From: a virus
Length of the DNA stretch: 58,198 bases
Direction: 5' to 3' (one strand)
Virus record (IMG/VR): IMGVR_UViG_3300010373_000052
Location: 1-58,198 of that record
Part shown: positions 4,997 through 31,158 of the stretch, one piece after another
Layout of the letters: every line of letters starts with the position of its first letter
How positions within the stretch are numbered: the first letter of the stretch is position 1
Notes under the pieces: model-generated
The model's database searches: none
Told to the model about the DNA's origin: nothing
Seen by the model: only the letters and a program-made list of their open reading frames with translations
Program-made: the position numbers and the translations under genes

Positions 4997-5157
4997 GCGA
5001 CACCTCCCTTGGCGTTGGCGAAGTACCAGTGCCCACGTGCCGCGAGCCTGGCGTTCTCCTCCATCCGCAGCTCGAGCTTCCACGTGTGCTGTCGGCACTC
5101 AGCCACCCACAGGTCGAACTCCGCGTCGTAGTGGACGGGGATGCAACTGGTGGTCAT
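4993..5157 (-). CDS. Hypothetical protein (54 aa)
   Basis: ATG at 5157 shares one base with the stop of the recombination gene (TGATG); the stop overlaps the next GTG. Two Cys (SCIP, AECRQH) and many aromatics; mostly acidic N-terminus and basic helical C-terminus (EENARLAARGHWY). Unknown. Confidence 0.6.
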   Translation of the reverse strand: MTTSCIPVHYDAEFDLWVAECRQHTWKLELRMEENARLAARGHWYFANAKGGVA

Positions 5158-5969
5158 CAAAACGGCTCCTCACCGGTAGGTTGCGACGACGCGGACTCGG
5201 TGACTGCGTCCGGCAGCTTCCAGCCGCCCTCGATGGCTTCGGTAAGCCACGTGCCGGATTTCCAGTCGAGTTCCTCAGCGTTGACGCCAAACAGGTGGAG
5301 TGCGGCGAGGTTGGCGTCCACGTCCCTCCCGCGGGAGATGGCCCACAGCCGCCGCACCTTGCCCTCCGAGAGCTTCTCTAGCGACTCGTCGTAGCGGGGC
5401 TGTGGCTTTCCCTTGCTGGGTTCCTTCAGCTCCCCCGTCTCGGGATCGTGCGCCGGTTGGGGGGCACGTCGCACGGTTCCCTGGGCTCGGCGGTTCGTCG
5501 TGGAGCCGTTGCCGTTGGCTGGCAGTACGTTCGTCGCCTTGTCCTCGGAGTGCCCGGATTCCAACCCGTCCTTGGCCCACAGATCCAGCGCCACACCGAA
5601 GCGCATGGCAGCGTTGCGGAGCGCGTCTCCGATCCGCTCCTTCATCGAAGGCCCGTCGCCTACGCCGAGGCGCGTTACCCCGCAGACCGTCAGCCGAATC
5701 CACAGGTTGCCCTCGCGGTCGAGGGCGGGCAGGCCCGATGCGTCAAGGGACAGGGGCTCCCACGTCCACTCCGGGTCGACGCTCAACAGCCGGTCGGTCA
5801 CGGCAGCGTGGCCGACGAAGTCCAAGTGCGCGGCGGGTAGGCCGTGGTAGCCACTGCAGACGTCGCACTTGCCCTTGGGCGAGTCCTTTTTGTACGGCTT
5901 GGGCAAGATCCCGACGGTGCCGGGCGGGAACGGCTCCCGCAGCTTTTCGAGTCGTTGATCCTCGGCCAT
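5157..5969 (-). CDS. Rad52-superfamily single-strand annealing protein (270 aa)
   Basis: Annealing proteins of this class pair complementary single strands made by a phage exonuclease. The N-terminal half (FPPGTVGILPKPYKK, a CDVC pair, VDPEWTWEPL, GVGDGPSMKERIGDALRNAA MRFG split across a helix) matches the conserved core of phage Rad52/22-like and DdrA-like proteins; the C-terminal ~100 residues are a charged, proline-rich linker plus a short helical domain. It sits immediately downstream of the exonuclease gene (TGATG overlap), the standard exo-annealase pair. ATG at 5969. Confidence 0.75.
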   Translation of the reverse strand: MAEDQRLEKLREPFPPGTVGILPKPYKKDSPKGKCDVCSGYHGLPAAHLDFVGHAAVTDRLLSVDPEWTWEPLSLDASGLPALDREGNLWIRLTVCGVTRLGVGDGPSMKERIGDALRNAAMRFGVALDLWAKDGLESGHSEDKATNVLPANGNGSTTNRRAQGTVRRAPQPAHDPETGELKEPSKGKPQPRYDESLEKLSEGKVRRLWAISRGRDVDANLAALHLFGVNAEELDWKSGTWLTEAIEGGWKLPDAVTESASSQPTGEEPF

Positions 5970-7834
5970 CACGCACCTCCCACAGACACCACGTCGGGCA
6001 CCTCGGGCAGACCCTTGCGCCACGTGACCAGATCGACCATCTTCAAGAAGACGTCGTGGTTGGCCTTGTCCAGCGGCAACTCGTAGAACGTGTAGCCCTC
6101 GTCGCCTCGCAGGTGGATGACACCCAGGCGGTCGGGTGGGGACCACGGCCCGGTGCCCACCTCTTGCACCTTCACCTTGCCGTCCTCCTCCCACGCCTCG
6201 TATTCGACGGTCTCGGTGGCGAAGGCGAGGGCGGTGAGCTGGGGCAGCCACGAATCGACGTAGATGCCTTTGCCGTCGTCCTGCTGGTTGGTGCTGTTGT
6301 GGGTCGGCACCATCTGTTCGCCACACAGATAGGTGTGGTCGGGGCTGTCAACGGCGATGCATTGGGTGGGCACCGACACGGTTGGCTCTACCGAGACGAT
6401 GAGGCGGCGACGGCCGTGCGCGGTGCCCTCAACCCGAACGGCGTCCCGCTTGTGCGCCACGTGGCGGAATGGGTTGTCTCGGTGGGGGGTGAATGCCACC
6501 CGATAGACGGTCACCTCCAGTCCGAACCCATGCTTGGTGAACGTGGACTGAGACGCATGCCAACCAAGCGAGACGACCAGTTCGTATACGTCCGCCGCAA
6601 GCTGCTTGTCGACAACGTCAAAGACGGCCTGGCGTCGTTTCTTGTTCCAGGTTCCGTCGGTATCCATGAGCCCCTGCAGCAACGCAAGGCGCTGGGATTG
6701 GCTTCCGCGCAAGTACGACCTCGGGACATGCTTATCAATGCTTGTGTCTCCGGTGGCTCCCATCTGACCGCAAGCTCGTAGATAAGGACGGAAGCCCAAC
6801 ACGTTCCACGACTCACCAGGATTCTCTGAGAGCGTGAAACCAGCATCACGGAACGCCTGCGCAACCGGAGCCTTGAGTCCGGGCAGGCTCACCCGCGTGT
6901 CACAACGGGTTCCATCGCCCAGCCATGCGCCGAGGAGGTACGGGTCTAACGGCAGGTCGGCGTCGGGCAAATCAAGCGGGGCTGGATTGACAACGCCGTA
7001 ACGACGTCGGGCACCGCGGCCCACCCTGGCGTTAATGTCGTCAGCAAGCTCGATTGTGGTCTTGACGCTGCGCGTCCCAGTAGCCATATGCGTGACCAGC
7101 CAGCGGTGGTCGTAATCACAAACCACCGATGACCCATCGTCAAACGTGACTCGGTAACAGTCCTTCTCATGGATGGCCGACTTCCCTACGACGCGAACAG
7201 GAGCGCCATCGTGACCGAAGACGCTGTCGCCGACAGCGATCGCGCCCATCGTGGTCCAACCCGCTGGGGTTGGAATCGGGGTGTCGAGAGATAGACCCTT
7301 CCAGTCGAGCAACCAGTCGTCCCCGACGATGCGGGCTCGCAGGTCGCCCGTGCCGATGTACTTGCCGGGGTAGCGCACCACCGTCTCGGTGGAGATGACC
7401 TCGGGCATGTGGTCGGCCCACCATGCCTCGATGCCGAGCACGTAGCCCAGGGCCGTCTCGGTCAGCTCGTCGGCGTTGCGGTCCTTCCACGTGCGGGCGT
7501 TGTGGTCGTGGGCGATGGTCCACTCGATGAGCGCCTGGATGTCGATGTCCTCACCTGCCGCGAACGCTTCGGGCACCTTGTGGCACAGCGTCCCCATGGC
7601 CGCCCGGCCGTTCCAGATCCCGGCGTGGTGCTTGCGGAGCTTGTCGATGGCGTCCGCAACGTCCATGTGCAGCCACTCGTCGTGGTGGAGCACGGCGTAC
7701 ATGGCCGTCTCGCGTGCCGCGCCCCACGACAGGCCGGGCTTGGACAGGATGTCGATGATCGTCGTGACGCTCGGCTCCGTGCCCCGAATCTTCGAGTACG
7801 GCCGAGCCGGGACCAGCGTCCTCTCTCTCAGCAT
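5969..7834 (-). CDS. PD-(D/E)XK (RecB/Cas4-like) exonuclease interrupted by an intein (621 aa precursor)
   Basis: The mature exonuclease would be 287 aa after removal of a 334-aa intein. Extein features: an early His (GTLCHKVPEAF), the GTGDLRARI strand with catalytic Asp, then WLLDWK giving the Asp-x-Lys core, and after the intein STNQQDDGKGIYVDSWLPQL with the Gln/Tyr motif of RecB-type nucleases. The intein sits directly after the catalytic Lys, so unspliced protein should be inactive. The ATG at 7834 overlaps the upstream stop, which fixes the start. Works with the annealing protein encoded next. Confidence 0.85.
   Translation of the reverse strand: MLRERTLVPARPYSKIRGTEPSVTTIIDILSKPGLSWGAARETAMYAVLHHDEWLHMDVADAIDKLRKHHAGIWNGRAAMGTLCHKVPEAFAAGEDIDIQALIEWTIAHDHNARTWKDRNADELTETALGYVLGIEAWWADHMPEVISTETVVRYPGKYIGTGDLRARIVGDDWLLDWKGLSLDTPIPTPAGWTTMGAIAVGDSVFGHDGAPVRVVGKSAIHEKDCYRVTFDDGSSVVCDYDHRWLVTHMATGTRSVKTTIELADDINARVGRGARRRYGVVNPAPLDLPDADLPLDPYLLGAWLGDGTRCDTRVSLPGLKAPVAQAFRDAGFTLSENPGESWNVLGFRPYLRACGQMGATGDTSIDKHVPRSYLRGSQSQRLALLQGLMDTDGTWNKKRRQAVFDVVDKQLAADVYELVVSLGWHASQSTFTKHGFGLEVTVYRVAFTPHRDNPFRHVAHKRDAVRVEGTAHGRRRLIVSVEPTVSVPTQCIAVDSPDHTYLCGEQMVPTHNSTNQQDDGKGIYVDSWLPQLTALAFATETVEYEAWEEDGKVKVQEVGTGPWSPPDRLGVIHLRGDEGYTFYELPLDKANHDVFLKMVDLVTWRKGLPEVPDVVSVGGA
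6296..7297 (-). mobile_element. Homing intein with LAGLIDADG endonuclease (334 aa), class 3 type
   Basis: The insert begins GLSLDTPIPTPAGW, without the Cys or Ser nucleophile usual at position 1, and ends MVPTHN before Ser. Splicing block B has His and Trp (DYDHRWLVTH), block F carries Cys (TQCIAVDSPDHTYLC) and block G carries Thr before His-Asn: the Trp-Cys-Thr set that defines class 3 inteins. Two dodecapeptide motifs, YLLGAWLGDG and ALLQGLMDTDG (60-85 residues apart), show a homing endonuclease that could still be active. Boundaries are inferred from these blocks; if Gly stays in the extein they shift by one codon. Confidence 0.85.
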
Positions 7835-8040
7835 TCCCCTATCTCCCTCTCTGGTGTTGCTTCGGTCGGCAGGTCGGCCAACGTGGCACACGTGCGCACG
7901 CCGTGCGTGTGGACGTGGCCGAACCAAACCCGCTTAATCTCCTCGCCGCAGTTGGCGCAGAGCGAAACCGCCCCAGTCCCGCCTGCACGTGGCGAGGGGG
8001 AGACAGCCGTTGTGGACGGGACTGGGGCAGAACTAGTCAT
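7828..8040 (-). CDS. Small zinc-binding protein (70 aa)
   Basis: ATG at 8040 overlaps the HNH gene stop by 8 nt. After a Pro/Ser-rich N-terminus comes a Cys/His cluster (LCANCGEEIKRVWFGHVH, later RTCA): CxxC plus two His and a Cys, a probable zinc ribbon. The acidic C-terminus overlaps the exonuclease start. Unknown function. Confidence 0.65.
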   Translation of the reverse strand: MTSSAPVPSTTAVSPSPRAGGTGAVSLCANCGEEIKRVWFGHVHTHGVRTCATLADLPTEATPEREIGEC

Positions 8041-8389
8041 TGTGCAGCGCGCCGTTCTCAATCTCGCTCCACGTGCGGGGCCGCACGATGAGTCGCATGG
8101 CTTCGGCGTCGGCCGGGTTGTCGTGGATGTAGCTGTGGTGCCACCAGCAGAGATGCAAGAGGTTGCTCAGGTCGTTCGTCCCCCCAGCGCTGCGGAGCGT
8201 GATGTGGTGGACGTGATGCGCCCAGTGGTCGCACGTGGGGTACTCGCACCGGCCCTCGCTGCGCTGGTGGATGAGCGGGCGCATGGCGTCGAGCTCGGCG
8301 TTGAACTCCGCGCCCCGGTTGCCCACGGCGTGTAGCGGGGTCTTCCGCTTCAGTGGGGTGTACCGCTTGAGGATGCCGCCGCGCTTCAC
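8033..8389 (-). CDS. HNH endonuclease (118 aa)
   Basis: GTG at 8389 overlaps the upstream stop. HNH core: CEYPTCDHWAHHVHH, then GGTNDLSNLLHLCWWHHSYIH, giving the conserved His-His, Asn and final His, with Cys pairs (CEYPTC and C...HH) that may hold structural zinc. The basic N-terminus (KRYTPLKRKTPL) is typical of phage HNH nucleases. Because it is co-directional and coupled to the operon it is more likely a replication or packaging-type nuclease than a freestanding homing gene. Confidence 0.85.
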   Translation of the reverse strand: MKRGGILKRYTPLKRKTPLHAVGNRGAEFNAELDAMRPLIHQRSEGRCEYPTCDHWAHHVHHITLRSAGGTNDLSNLLHLCWWHHSYIHDNPADAEAMRLIVRPRTWSEIENGALHND

Positions 8390-8538
8390 GACGTGACCCC
8401 CCACGCGTCGGCCAACGTGTCGTGCTGGGCGTAGGCGCTCTCGATCGAATCGGTTTCGGCGAACCAGCCGCACTCGAAGCACGTCGCGCGGTACTTGTCG
8501 TCCGGCGCGGGGTCAATCGTCAGTTCGTGGTCACTCAC
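8386..8538 (-). CDS. Cys mini-protein with CFECGW motif (50 aa)
   Basis: GTG at 8538 with GGGAGG upstream; overlaps the previous gene by 8 nt and the HNH start by 4. The core ATCFECGWFAETDS followed by a His 18 residues later resembles the CSCGW..H core of the next gene upstream and of the gene at 55553..55774, indicating a family of small C-x(1-2)-C-GW proteins in this genome. Function unknown. Confidence 0.65.
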   Translation of the reverse strand: MSDHELTIDPAPDDKYRATCFECGWFAETDSIESAYAQHDTLADAWGVTS

Positions 8539-8701: not shown

Positions 8702-9066
8702 GGCAGGTCCCCACTCGCGATGGCGGCGAACATGCGGTCAGGCAGTGGGTCGTCCCACCACACGTCGACGAACTCGACGCCGCTACCGGGATCAGAAACC
8801 CCGGTGTCTCGACCGGCGTGGTAACGGTTGACCCGCACCTCCTCGTCGCCGACGATGAAGCGGACGCGGACGGAGCGAATGAGCTGGGCCGCTTGGTCCA
8901 GCCTGTACTCGTGAGCTGCTCGGCGGTCGTCCCACTCGAACCGGTCGTGTAGTGCGTGGTCGGGGTCGGTAGCTTCCTCTACCAAGTCGACCGGGCGCAG
9001 TTCGCCCCGACGCTTGTAGAGCTCCTCCAGCACCGCCTCTACAACGGACGTGGCGTCAGTCGTCAT
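8698..9066 (-). CDS. Conserved actinophage hypothetical protein (122 aa)
   Basis: ATG at 9066 overlaps the upstream stop (ATGA). N-terminal helix (VVEAVLEELYKRRG), then DLVEEATDPDHALHDRFEWDD and QAAQLIRSVRVRF, followed by a beta-rich acidic C-terminus. The HDRFEWDD...RLDQAAQLIRS pattern is familiar from actinobacteriophage early proteins without known function. Confidence 0.7.
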   Translation of the reverse strand: MTTDATSVVEAVLEELYKRRGELRPVDLVEEATDPDHALHDRFEWDDRRAAHEYRLDQAAQLIRSVRVRFIVGDEEVRVNRYHAGRDTGVSDPGSGVEFVDVWWDDPLPDRMFAAIASGDLP

Positions 9067-9539
9067 CCCGCCACCTCGACAATCTCCAACTCGTCGTTCA
9101 CTTGGAAGGTGCCGAACGTTCCACCCTTCTCCGGGCGCCACTCGCCGACGCCATCGCCCGTGCCTCCGGCATCGACCAACGCCAACACTGAGGACTTGTC
9201 GTAGAAACGGGCACCGCCCACTACGGCCGACTTGAACGCCGCCGCAGGGAATCCCACACTGCCGTCGGCCATGCGGTAGATGGACTCTTGAAAGTCGCCT
9301 TCTGGATCGCGGATCGTCTTCTGCTTCTTCCGACCCTGCTGGGCGTCCAGCATGATCTGTTTCGCCTTGGCGCTCCAAGCGTGAACGATTAACGGCGCCG
9401 TGCCAATCACTGGGACCAGCACGGTCCGTCGCTCGATGCGTTGGATCGAGATCGCAGCCGATCCAGTTTCAGCCGGTGTCGCGACCTTGGTCCCCTTCGG
9501 AACCTTCCCGTTCGTCTTGACCTCAGTTGCCGTAGTCAC
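9063..9539 (-). CDS. Phage recombination-cassette protein of unknown function (158 aa)
   Basis: GTG at 9539 with GGAGGA nine bases upstream; this is the first gene after the pentanucleotide array. Core: RRTVLVPVIGTAPLIVHAWSAKAKQ, then a Gln/Lys-rich helix, then FQESIYRMADGSVGFPAAAFKSAVVGGARF. This core is known to me from phage proteins near RecT/RecB-type genes but has no firm function. It may be a nucleoid- or DNA-binding partner of the exonuclease/annealase pair. Confidence 0.7.
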   Translation of the reverse strand: MTTATEVKTNGKVPKGTKVATPAETGSAAISIQRIERRTVLVPVIGTAPLIVHAWSAKAKQIMLDAQQGRKKQKTIRDPEGDFQESIYRMADGSVGFPAAAFKSAVVGGARFYDKSSVLALVDAGGTGDGVGEWRPEKGGTFGTFQVNDELEIVEVAG

Positions 9540-9572
9540 CTCGAAAACTCCTCCCTCTTGGTTGTTGGCTGT

Positions 9573-9840
9573 AGGCCATGCCCGGCCCTGCCCAGCGGAG
9601 CCCTGACAGGCCCAGCCACGCATAGGCCATGCCAGCCGCGCCCTGCCATGCCCTGCCCAGCGAGGCCTAGCCGTGCCATGCCTGCCGTGCCGTGCCACGC
9701 CATGCCCAGAGCCGCCGGGCCATGCCACGCCGGCCTAGCCACGCCTGGCCGAGCCCCGCCTTGCCGAGCCGAGCCGGGCCAAGCCTGGCAAGCCATGCCG
9801 CGCCGAGTCGCGCCCTGCCGGGCCCTGCCACGCCCCGACT
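9573..9840. repeat. Degenerate NNGCC pentanucleotide array (~53 units), non-coding
   Basis: Between two tightly packed genes lie ~310 bp without a credible gene. From 9573 the + strand parses almost entirely into five-base units ending in GCC (aggcc atgcc cggcc ctgcc and so on; minus strand GGCNN), with only occasional 4-, 6-, 7- or 8-base units. The first two bases vary widely while GCC is kept, so this is not a simple microsatellite. Frames remain open by composition, but none has a ribosome site and the period is not a multiple of three. It sits just upstream of the recombination genes. Role unknown. Confidence 0.85.
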
Positions 9841-9851
9841 GGTAGAAAACT

Positions 9852-10198: not shown

Positions 10199-10847
<649 letters not shown>

Positions 10848-27505: not shown

Positions 27506-29536
27506 CTATCCAAACAGAACGGCGGGGCCGTTCAGGGTGTCCGAACCGCTCTTGCCGAAAATGAAGGCGTTCTTCGCGATCTCTTGTGGAGACAACTTCC
27601 AGGTCGTCCGCCACACGCCGGTCGCGCTGTCGAACGAGTGGGCGATGTGCTCGATGACCGAATCTTGGGCGAACTGGGTCTCGCCCGGCCCTTGGCGCTG
27701 AATGGTCACGCGGTCGAGTAGGTTCCGGCCGAGCATCTGCGGGAGGTTCGCCCCACTGTTGGCCGTACTCGCCAACGTGATGGAATCAACGCGTAGCAAG
27801 GGCGACCCGTACAGGCACAGGAGCAGCTCGGCCGTGTTGAGCGCCTGCGCGTCGGTTTGGCACATCAGACTGGTGCGCTGGAGCGTCGACCACCCGTACG
27901 CCGTGGTTGACGTGGAGCTCGTCGCCTCTTGCAGGATGCCGTTCGTGCGCTGGGCGGTGACGTCGGACCAGAGGTCGAGGTCGTCTTGTGGGATGTTCAG
28001 CGCCTGTATTTGGAAGTGCAGCGACGTGCCGGTGTTGTCGCCGAACGTGCCCTGACTGGTCGTGGACGTGGCGTTGGTGTAGCAGTAGAACCGGTTGGAG
28101 AACGAGAACGTGCCGTCCGACTTCTGGTAGAACAGACCGACCTCGGTGTCGTTGGCGTACATGATGAAGTCGAGCGCCGTGGTGAGGGTCGTGGACTGGG
28201 CCTCGGGTTGGCACGGTTGGCTGCCCGCCTGGAGGCCGGTGTAGGTCCACGACGGCCACCCGGCAACGTCGAGCGCCTCGGTGATCTTGTCGGACGTGAG
28301 ATTGCTGTTCCGTAGCAACCGACCGACCGTGAAGTTGTTGGTTATCGCCGTGCTCGAAAGCACCGATTGGTAGATGGCGATCTCATCGATGACGCCATCG
28401 AATGTCGCCGCGGAGCCCGCAGGAAAACTCGGCCCGTTGTAAACGATTCCCCCGATCGTGAGAGGTGCGTTGTGGGTCTCACCCCAATACTCGCCAGCCC
28501 ACGCGCCCTGTGCGACCGAATCGAGGTAGAGGGTCCAGGTGGATGTGGAGCCCGCAGGAGGACCAGCGGTTACAACCACATGGTGCCATTGACCGTCGTT
28601 GACGTATCCGCCGGTGACCTGGGCAAGGAATGGGGTGGCTGACGTCCAGGGCGGTGGTTGTGCGATGCCGTCAGCCAAGGCGAGCCGTCCATTGACGTCC
28701 ACGATGAGACAGACGGCCGAGGGATCGAAGGAACCGCCGCCAGTGGCATACCAGGTGAAAATCTGCTGGGTGTGCGCGGTCGTCATGATCCACGCCTCGA
28801 ACGTCCACGCCGAGGTGTCCGGGTTGGGCGGCGAGATGGACGTCAGCCACCCGGTCCCCGTCGTCCCGTTGCCAAAGTTCCACGCCGAGCTGGGGTCGTA
28901 GACCATGGCCCCCGCGACGTCGTACTGCACGGTTCCCGAAAGCGCAGCTGGCCCCGTGGCTTCGGTTGCGCTAGCGGCGTGGTTGCCGCTGGTCTCGTTG
29001 AGTCGGTAATACGCGACGGGGTTGAGGGCGAGGACGGTGTTGGGGTACAGCGTGGAGTTGACCAGGTACTTGAGGCCGAGCAGTTTGAGCGCATCGGTGG
29101 CCTGAAGCGTGCAGTCCTGGTTGAGCACGTCGGTCGGCGTGACGGTCCAGTTGTCGACGAACCCGTAGAACACGTTGTACGTCGTGCCGCTCCACGTGGC
29201 CTGGATGCGAACGGGTTTGCGGGGAACGAGACCCTGCCCAGGCGTCGAGGAGTAGTAGGGGCTCGAGGTGTTCCACGGGCTGAACTGTCCGCCCCGGTTG
29301 TCGAGGGTGATCTGCGCCGTGGAGGCTTCCACCCGGTCGAGCTGGTGCTGGCGTCCCATGGTGGTCCGAAACGCACGCACGAACGCGGTGATGTCCGTCC
29401 AGACGATCGTCTCGTCCGCCCAGTTGTTGGTGAACCCCACCTGGACGGAAAGGGTCGGCAGGCTCGGAAGGACGGACGCCCCGCCGTCGTACAGTGCCGC
29501 GCTGTCATAGGGGACCGACGAGTCATAGATGACCAT
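27506..29536 (-). CDS. Minor tail protein with inserted LamG/concanavalin domain (676 aa)
   Basis: ATG at 29536. Residues 1-165: VQVGFTNNWADETIVWTDIT, TMGRQHQLDRVEASTAQITL DNRGG split across a strand, the typical start of siphophage minor tail (distal tail/hub) proteins. Residues ~175-400: a LamG-3 jelly roll (YYRLNETSGNHAAS, WTFEAWIMTTAH, WHHVVVTAG, GVIDEIAIYQSVLS), probably carbohydrate binding. C-terminal 270 residues return to tail type (RTSLMCQTDAQALNTAELLL). Likely tail tip with glycan-binding ability. Confidence 0.82.
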   Translation of the reverse strand: MVIYDSSVPYDSAALYDGGASVLPSLPTLSVQVGFTNNWADETIVWTDITAFVRAFRTTMGRQHQLDRVEASTAQITLDNRGGQFSPWNTSSPYYSSTPGQGLVPRKPVRIQATWSGTTYNVFYGFVDNWTVTPTDVLNQDCTLQATDALKLLGLKYLVNSTLYPNTVLALNPVAYYRLNETSGNHAASATEATGPAALSGTVQYDVAGAMVYDPSSAWNFGNGTTGTGWLTSISPPNPDTSAWTFEAWIMTTAHTQQIFTWYATGGGSFDPSAVCLIVDVNGRLALADGIAQPPPWTSATPFLAQVTGGYVNDGQWHHVVVTAGPPAGSTSTWTLYLDSVAQGAWAGEYWGETHNAPLTIGGIVYNGPSFPAGSAATFDGVIDEIAIYQSVLSSTAITNNFTVGRLLRNSNLTSDKITEALDVAGWPSWTYTGLQAGSQPCQPEAQSTTLTTALDFIMYANDTEVGLFYQKSDGTFSFSNRFYCYTNATSTTSQGTFGDNTGTSLHFQIQALNIPQDDLDLWSDVTAQRTNGILQEATSSTSTTAYGWSTLQRTSLMCQTDAQALNTAELLLCLYGSPLLRVDSITLASTANSGANLPQMLGRNLLDRVTIQRQGPGETQFAQDSVIEHIAHSFDSATGVWRTTWKLSPQEIAKNAFIFGKSGSDTLNGPAVLFG

Positions 29537-29538
29537 GC

Positions 29539-31158
29539 TCAACGCTGATAAACCTGCACTTCCGCGACGTTCATGACCATGTCGACGTTGGTACTCGGCG
29601 ACGCGCTAAAGGTGCCCGACGCGATCGACCCGTTCATGATGAGGAAGTACGGCCCGTTCCCGCTACCGAGGCTGGCCGTGCCACGCAACACGTTGTCGAG
29701 GTAGATGTTGACCGTGTTCGTCGAGCCGATGATCTCCATCCCGTAGATGTGGTAACCGGCAGAGAGGTCCGAGCTGGCCAGGTAGTTCTCGATGTCGACC
29801 TGCGGCGACTGAAGGTGGCTGCAGAGGTAGTTCGGGCTCTGGCCCGCTATCCCGGTCTCTTGCAGGTCGATCTCTCGGGAGCCGTTGCCCTGCCCGAGAA
29901 ACCAGAGCGCATTCCAGGTCCCGTTGTTCGAGCCGTTGTAGCCCATCATCTGTGCATTGATCTGCACGTAGCAGTCGGTGTGCGGGCTGACGGGGAAGCT
30001 CACATGGTTGTAGGTGTTGATCGCGCCCGAGGACCACGAGAAGGACTGCGTGCCGTACACGTCGTTGACCGTGTAGTGGCCCTGGTAGTGGCCCTGAATG
30101 GACAGGCCCGAACCGGAGGAGTCGAACGTCTGCGGCGTGTAGGTGCCGAACAGCGACGAATCCGCGCCGTGGGTCGTTTGGAACACGTTGCCGGGGAAGT
30201 CGTAATCCAGGTTGCCGGTGTTGCTGGATCCGGTTTCGGAACTGCCCCAGTTCGGAGACGAGCCCGACGCGGCCCACGGCGTGTAACCCCCACCGGAGCC
30301 CGACGCGTTGTTGTCGGTGATCCCGAAGTTCCACGACGAGCCCGCCGCGCCCGGCACGATGGTGAACTGGTCCTCGAACGTCTTGTTGCCACTGGTCCAC
30401 GTCGAACCCGAGTAGGACGGCGCGCTCATGGTCCCGCTACCGCCGCCCCCGCCTCCTCCACCGCTCCCGCCACCCGATGCCGACTTGAACGCGACCGCTT
30501 GGGAGTACCAGGCACCCGACGGGGCGGTGTACGTCTCAGCGGTGTAGGAGTTCGCCGAGCCGAGGGCGATCCACGATTGGAAGTTCCCCGGTCCCTGGCC
30601 GATGGGGTTGTAGCTGTCGGTGAAGCCGTGGTCGTTGACCGCGCTGACCGCGCCGCCCTGGATCCACGTCTGGGTCGTCACCGCTTCACCTGCGGAGGCC
30701 AGGGTCATCGACGGGATCGTGGGAGTCGTGCTGGTGGCCGTGGACGTGTTCTGCGTGTCGACGCCCGAGCTGCCCTCGACGTCGAACACGTAGACCTGAG
30801 CGAAGGCATAGCCGGCCGAGGGCGTGCAGGTCAGGGTGCCGTTCGACGGCGTGGTCGTGACCTCTCCGGTCCACGTCTGCATGAGGGCGCCCGACGGCGC
30901 CGAGTCGACGGTCTTGGTCCACGCGCCAGTGCCCGTGGCCGGAACGCCCAACCCTGACAGGGACACCGTGCCGGTAAACGAGGTGATGAACACCGGGACA
31001 GAGATCCAGTCGCCGATGGACGGGACCGTCGTGAGGGTGACGATGATGGCACCGGATGTCGAGTTCTGTGCCTGCGCTGGCGTCTGGCGAAACGACGCGG
31101 GTACGAGGACGCCGCCGCCACTCTGATAGAGCAGCATTTCCGCCGCGCGTGGGGTCAT
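29539..31158 (-). CDS. Tail-associated GH16-type glycosidase (539 aa)
   Basis: Residues 1-230 are the shared tail beta-sandwich (GTGAWTKTVDSAPSGALMQT, YAFAQVYVFDVEG). A Gly-rich hinge (GGGSGGGGGGGGSG) leads to a GH16 domain: FEDQFTIVP, GHYTVNDVYGTQ, YVQINAQMMGYNG, then WNALWFLGQG and SREIDLQETG, which carries the E-x-D-x-x-E catalytic signature, and YHIYGMEIIGSTNTVNIYLD. GH16 enzymes cut beta-glucans and galactans, so this is a likely virion depolymerase for host surface polysaccharide. ATG overlaps the upstream stop. Confidence 0.85.
   Translation of the reverse strand: MTPRAAEMLLYQSGGGVLVPASFRQTPAQAQNSTSGAIIVTLTTVPSIGDWISVPVFITSFTGTVSLSGLGVPATGTGAWTKTVDSAPSGALMQTWTGEVTTTPSNGTLTCTPSAGYAFAQVYVFDVEGSSGVDTQNTSTATSTTPTIPSMTLASAGEAVTTQTWIQGGAVSAVNDHGFTDSYNPIGQGPGNFQSWIALGSANSYTAETYTAPSGAWYSQAVAFKSASGGGSGGGGGGGGSGTMSAPSYSGSTWTSGNKTFEDQFTIVPGAAGSSWNFGITDNNASGSGGGYTPWAASGSSPNWGSSETGSSNTGNLDYDFPGNVFQTTHGADSSLFGTYTPQTFDSSGSGLSIQGHYQGHYTVNDVYGTQSFSWSSGAINTYNHVSFPVSPHTDCYVQINAQMMGYNGSNNGTWNALWFLGQGNGSREIDLQETGIAGQSPNYLCSHLQSPQVDIENYLASSDLSAGYHIYGMEIIGSTNTVNIYLDNVLRGTASLGSGNGPYFLIMNGSIASGTFSASPSTNVDMVMNVAEVQVYQR

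Follow-up and report, generated by a model that had tools for sequence, protein, structure and literature searches.

We describe a gene that very probably encodes a phage exonuclease of the RecB/Cas4/lambda-exo-like PD-(D/E)XK type, probably paired with an annealing protein, and that contains a mobile class 3 intein predicted to splice and home. It lies in a viral record (IMGVR_UViG_3300010373_000052), of which we analysed the whole stretch of 58,198 nucleotides (hereafter the window). The open reading frame at positions 5969–7834 (minus strand) is open across its full length and encodes a precursor of 621 aa, which can be parsed into an N-extein of 179 aa, an intein of 334 aa and a C-extein of 108 aa, the joined extein amounting to 287 aa. 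The splice junctions (marked here by a slash) are DWK/GLSLDTPIPTPAGWTTM upstream (DWK/GLSLDTP) and QCIAVDSPDHTYLCGEQMVPTHN/STNQQ downstream (PTHN/STNQQ). Translation and junction parse thus agree with the product sizes given in the original prediction (a 287-aa exonuclease and a 334-aa intein), as well as with an insertion right behind the catalytic lysine, whereas its title was wrong in having the intein split the D-x-K motif: as the text of that prediction itself says, the intein directly follows the lysine. The features of the locus are as follows:

7298..7834, minus strand: N-extein of the exonuclease, 179 aa, ending in D177-W178-K179 (translation; the family profile alignment stops at K179)
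within 7298..7834, minus strand: RecB-family residues H85, D164, D177 and K179 (invariant columns of the family alignment)
6296..7297, minus strand: class 3 intein of 334 aa (Gly1–Asn334) that includes a LAGLIDADG homing endonuclease (sequence; structural matches 6bs8, 6rix and PI-SceI)
7157..7159, minus strand: Cys47, counterpart of Cys48 in M. smegmatis (Msm) DnaBi1 (alignment with 6bs8; Cys in 19 of the 29 inteins compared)
7100..7102, minus strand: block B Trp66 of the WCT triplet, DxxHxW (intein sequence, alignment)
6911..6937, minus strand: LAGLIDADG motif 1, LLGAWLGDG, intein residues 121-129 (intein sequence, alignment)
6653..6682, minus strand: LAGLIDADG motif 2, LLQGLMDTDG, intein residues 206-215 (sequence, alignment; Pfam LAGLIDADG_3 on the intein)
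6359..6361, minus strand: block F Cys313, predicted initiating nucleophile, QCIAVDS (aligns with catalytic Cys118 of Msm DnaBi1)
6302..6304, minus strand: block G Thr332, then His333-Asn334 (intein sequence, alignment)
5972..6295, minus strand: C-extein of the exonuclease, 108 aa, Ser +1 first (translation; profile alignment)
5157..5969, minus strand: single-strand annealing protein gene, phrog_3290 (its ATG overlaps the exonuclease stop, TGATG)

The first residue of the intein is a glycine, block A being devoid of any Cys, Ser or Thr nucleophile, and the class 3 triplet W-C-T is formed by Trp66, Cys313 and Thr332 in blocks B, F and G, while the C-terminal His333-Asn334 is followed by a serine at position +1 (HN/S). 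All these class-defining residues (W, C, T, H and N) are invariant in an alignment of 29 inteins gathered from phages and viral contigs (29/29). The two LAGLIDADG motifs are present with both acidic residues intact (D128 and D214), and the Pfam profile LAGLIDADG_3 matches the intein with E = 3.1e-5 (24.6 bits for a cut-off of 22.5 bits). Both the class 3 assignment without N-terminal nucleophile and the pair of LAGLIDADG motifs had been predicted beforehand, and both are borne out. The best phmmer matches of the intein are the class 3 structures 6bs8 (E = 1.3e-27) and 6rix/6riy, and same-site phage inteins match it with E down to about 1e-101, well past anything that chance would give. Concerning the fold, the predicted intein domain has a pLDDT of about 90 over much of its length and is matched by 6bs8 (Z 21.1, 1.4 A over 124 residues, 47% identity), by PI-SceI (Z 28) and also by the solved class 3 intein 6rix. 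Residues 180..513 of the precursor align end to end with many solved inteins, from their residue 1 to their last; the boundaries of the intein are fixed by the PI-SceI and class 3 structural matches, position 1 having been placed by structure alignment and intein-free homologues. A class 1 intein beginning at Ser3 was also considered but rejected, as the structure and homologue alignments both put position 1 at Gly180. No further intein domain was detected in ten large open reading frames using Pfam, which barely detects the window intein either.

Pfam and PDB sequence searches did not recognise the extein, and its family was therefore assigned using PHROGs and the fold of relatives. The match to the phrog_298 exonucleases is stronger for the joined extein than for the precursor (E = 1.9e-17 vs. 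1.1e-12), and so is that to a profile of intein-free relatives (98.5 vs. 84.3 bits), the second match of the latter profile in the precursor stopping exactly at K179. Members of the extein family, the alignment of which takes in Microbacterium phage Percival gp27 and its relatives, were found at 73 viral loci, none of which (0/73) carries the intein. The original prediction had also proposed looking for intein-free alleles in related phages: 71 of these relatives are full-length, and they mostly read D-W-K-T-S at the site (DWKTS in 37 of the 50 relatives where a simple pattern located it). The phrog_298 exonucleases such as Percival gp27 share the extein family of the window and are co-linear with it through the splice site (LDNK-TT), but lack the intein. 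The window's extein has distant relatives (27% identity to Percival gp27), and no close intein-free allele of the window's own exonuclease was found in viral and genome contigs, which yielded distant relatives only.

In the extein, H85, D164 and D177-x-K179 match invariant family columns, so that the H ... D ... D-x-K core is present. Within the Q-x-x-x-Y motif, the Gln is kept, whereas the Tyr, invariant in 37 aligned relatives, is replaced by a Leu in the window (QLTAL), and full nuclease activity is therefore not assured. Since the exteins were mostly below a pLDDT of 50 in the precursor model, and thus uninformative, a relative was modelled instead. The model of this intein-free relative (not the window's own extein) has a pLDDT of 90.9 and matches MGME1 (Z 16.9), Dna2 (11.0), RecE (10.1), Cas4 (9.9) and lambda exo (8.1), AdnA also being among its structural matches, and its D163-x-K165 ends a beta-strand. 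Altogether, the phrog_298 match, the D-x-K core and the fold of the modelled relative uphold the predicted RecB/Cas4-like host.

In lambda Red and other phage recombination systems, an exonuclease is paired with an annealase. The overlapping phrog_3290 gene fits this arrangement: the two genes probably form an exonuclease plus single-strand annealing recombination pair, in which the exonuclease is the nuclease half and the annealing protein its likely partner. On the other side, an HNH endonuclease gene (8033-8482, minus strand) is found upstream of that for the exonuclease, at a distance of a few hundred bases.

From these features, we infer that the intein splices, that its endonuclease cuts and that the unspliced precursor is inactive. 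After translation, Cys313 of block F would attack the Lys179-Gly180 bond; the branch would be handed to Ser +1, after which Asn334 would cyclise, and the exteins would join as DWK-STN, which would restore the arrangement of the intein-free family. Exonuclease activity would thus likely depend on splicing, as is plausible from the anatomy of the gene. As for mobility, cleavage of alleles devoid of the intein by its LAGLIDADG domain would occur at the catalytic D-x-K-T/S codons, and the intein would then be copied in there. Such a site would suit an intein because it is conserved and supplies a Thr or Ser as +1 nucleophile, and because imprecise loss destroys the nuclease.

An exonuclease active site had been regarded as an unusual host for this intein class, but this did not hold: Kelley et al. 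(2016, PMC5050341) reported 40 class 3 inteins at the PD-(D/E)XK motif of Cas4/RecB-like exonucleases from C1 mycobacteriophages, and 19 loci besides the window, including MoMoMixon (C1), carry a class 3 intein directly behind (D/E)-x-K. The window intein is thus an addition to a known group, of which same-spot members in related phages were described in 2016. Carriers include Streptomyces phage Frankenweenie, Mycobacterium phage Dexes, Pseudomonas phage Rollin, a faecal phage and viral contigs, and the same-site intein is also seen in Mycolicibacter and Nonomuraea genome contigs. In the intein tree, 19 of the 20 D-x-K inteins cluster together with a support of 91/94, just under the strong threshold of the program, while the C1 intein is placed elsewhere. 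The C1 RecB-like/Cas4-like exonuclease inteins (e.g., MoMoMixon gp212) resemble that of the window in their class, LAGLIDADG domain, PD-(D/E)XK exonuclease host and recombination-gene neighbourhood, and the junctions of gp212 (ELK/S...THN/T) have the identical position, directly behind the Lys of (D/E)-x-K; yet the C1 and window inteins are about 37% identical, the former falling outside the main D-x-K lineage, and their exteins have no BLAST-detectable kinship. Nearer to the window are the inteins of Frankenweenie gp79 and of the Cas4 exonucleases of the Fromanvirus phages Dexes, DiMaria, Zeeculate and Traft412, which belong to its intein group and sit at DWK/G or DYK/G. Those of Frankenweenie and Dexes are 46-51% identical to the window intein, whereas sequence kinship between the Frankenweenie or Fromanvirus exteins and the window extein is not detectable. 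M. smegmatis DnaBi1 (PDB 6bs8) has a class 3 splicing domain like that of the window, in which its Cys48 and Cys118 have equivalents, but it is a mini-intein without homing endonuclease, located at the P-loop of DnaB (PMC6195587).

The residue before the intein is Lys in 26 of the 29 aligned inteins and all of them have Ser, Thr or Cys at +1, the cousins in terminases and DnaB being mostly found behind the P-loop Lys. This suggests that active sites are hit because they offer a conserved Lys with a usable nucleophile right behind it. One terminase-like protein with a class 3 intein (L016) shows an apparent second LAGLIDADG-like insert further along (BLAST match at residues 972-1036 of its reading frame).

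The traces of mobility come from relatives of the window. When its intein is removed, the Dexes gene is 98.8% identical to that of the intein-free phage Pelly over 600 nt, without gaps, and Frankenweenie minus its intein is 87.2% identical to JustBecause, again gap-free over 600 nt. The four filled Fromanvirus alleles (L003, L035, L036 and L037), which stand among many intein-free neighbours, all read GACTATAAA/ACG where the empty allele has GACTGGAAG/ACC, i.e., they have in common four private substitutions, all lying 4 nt or less from the junction, in backgrounds that are otherwise different; among phage records, this filled junction was never found without intein at 100% identity. Such substitutions, observed in related phages rather than in the window itself, are the mark that a short co-conversion leaves behind and amount to a clear footprint of homing. 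On a broader scale, kinship is detectable by BLAST for all intein pairs (190/190) but for only 22 of the 190 extein pairs, none of which involves the window. It is conceivable, though we hold it only tentatively, that a single class 3 lineage has repeatedly invaded phage exonucleases sharing almost nothing beyond D-x-K-T/S, and would thus be an active-site-tracking element that crosses gene families; in that case, the endonuclease would need little beyond the GAY-NNN-AAR/ACN codons, which resemble the AAR/ACN of the P-loop sites in its terminase and DnaB cousins. Instead of repeated jumps, there may have been a long common descent during which the exteins evolved fast. Class 3 inteins behind the catalytic Lys of RecB/Cas4-like nucleases are not confined to one mycobacteriophage cluster: the same-site allele is widespread in phages of Streptomyces, Mycobacterium and Pseudomonas and in uncultured viruses, mostly as one intein lineage in very divergent hosts. 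It thus becomes possible to test what length of DNA around the D-x-K codons such a homing endonuclease requires, and protein-splicing work gains natural class 3 inteins whose endonuclease domains are full.

Instead of being simply a mobile element, the intein might act as a regulatory switch, with conditional splicing gating exonuclease activity, for example through a redox-gated disulfide between Cys47 and Cys313. At first sight, this reading draws on the alignment of Cys47 with Cys48 of DnaBi1, which under oxidation forms a disulfide with the catalytic Cys and thereby blocks splicing (PMC6195587), and on the model of the family, where the catalytic strand ends at the insertion point. However, a Cys47 equivalent occurs in most class 3 inteins compared and is a Thr in seven same-site inteins, including those of the Dexes type, so that it does not look like a site-specific adaptation. 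Moreover, every tested substitution of Cys48 in DnaBi1 abolished splicing (PMC6195587), meaning that conservation of this Cys can reflect splicing alone, and close relatives without intein are far commoner, which indicates that no switch is needed. Redox control is possible, although none of these observations points to it in particular, and we consider a switch unlikely.

That the intein has degenerated, i.e., has lost splicing or endonuclease activity and left a dead nuclease as precursor, is less probable still. The Leu in place of the QxxxY Tyr counts towards such a decay, but the class 3 catalytic residues are all intact, as are the two acidic residues of the LAGLIDADG motifs, the frame has stayed open and the extein keeps its H, D, D-x-K and Q motifs. 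Least credible of all, to the point of being nearly dismissed, is a folded domain staying in the mature nuclease: it is at odds with the full set of splicing motifs and the fold of a class 3 intein, with precise empty sites in phages that are 87-99% identical, and with the presence of the same element at the P-loops of terminases and a DnaB. We therefore retain a mobile, splicing class 3 intein.

Outside the exonuclease locus, three repetitive stretches were observed in the window. Its very end of record (1-136) is a tandem array of the 12-bp unit CGCCGCATCCCC (24-bp in a second register); positions 9625-9850 hold about 220 bp of degenerate GCC(A/G)(T/C) pentamer-like low complexity, in the 5' part of an open reading frame (9063-9728, minus strand); and a 21-bp tandem array, GGCGTAGCCGGCGTTGGCGGC, at 10252-10438 would give an Ala-rich repeat if read on the minus strand. 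Finally, in the structural-gene region, a large protein (27506-29542, minus strand) contains a ConA-like lectin domain (Laminin_G_3) and is possibly a receptor-binding or tail-decoration protein.
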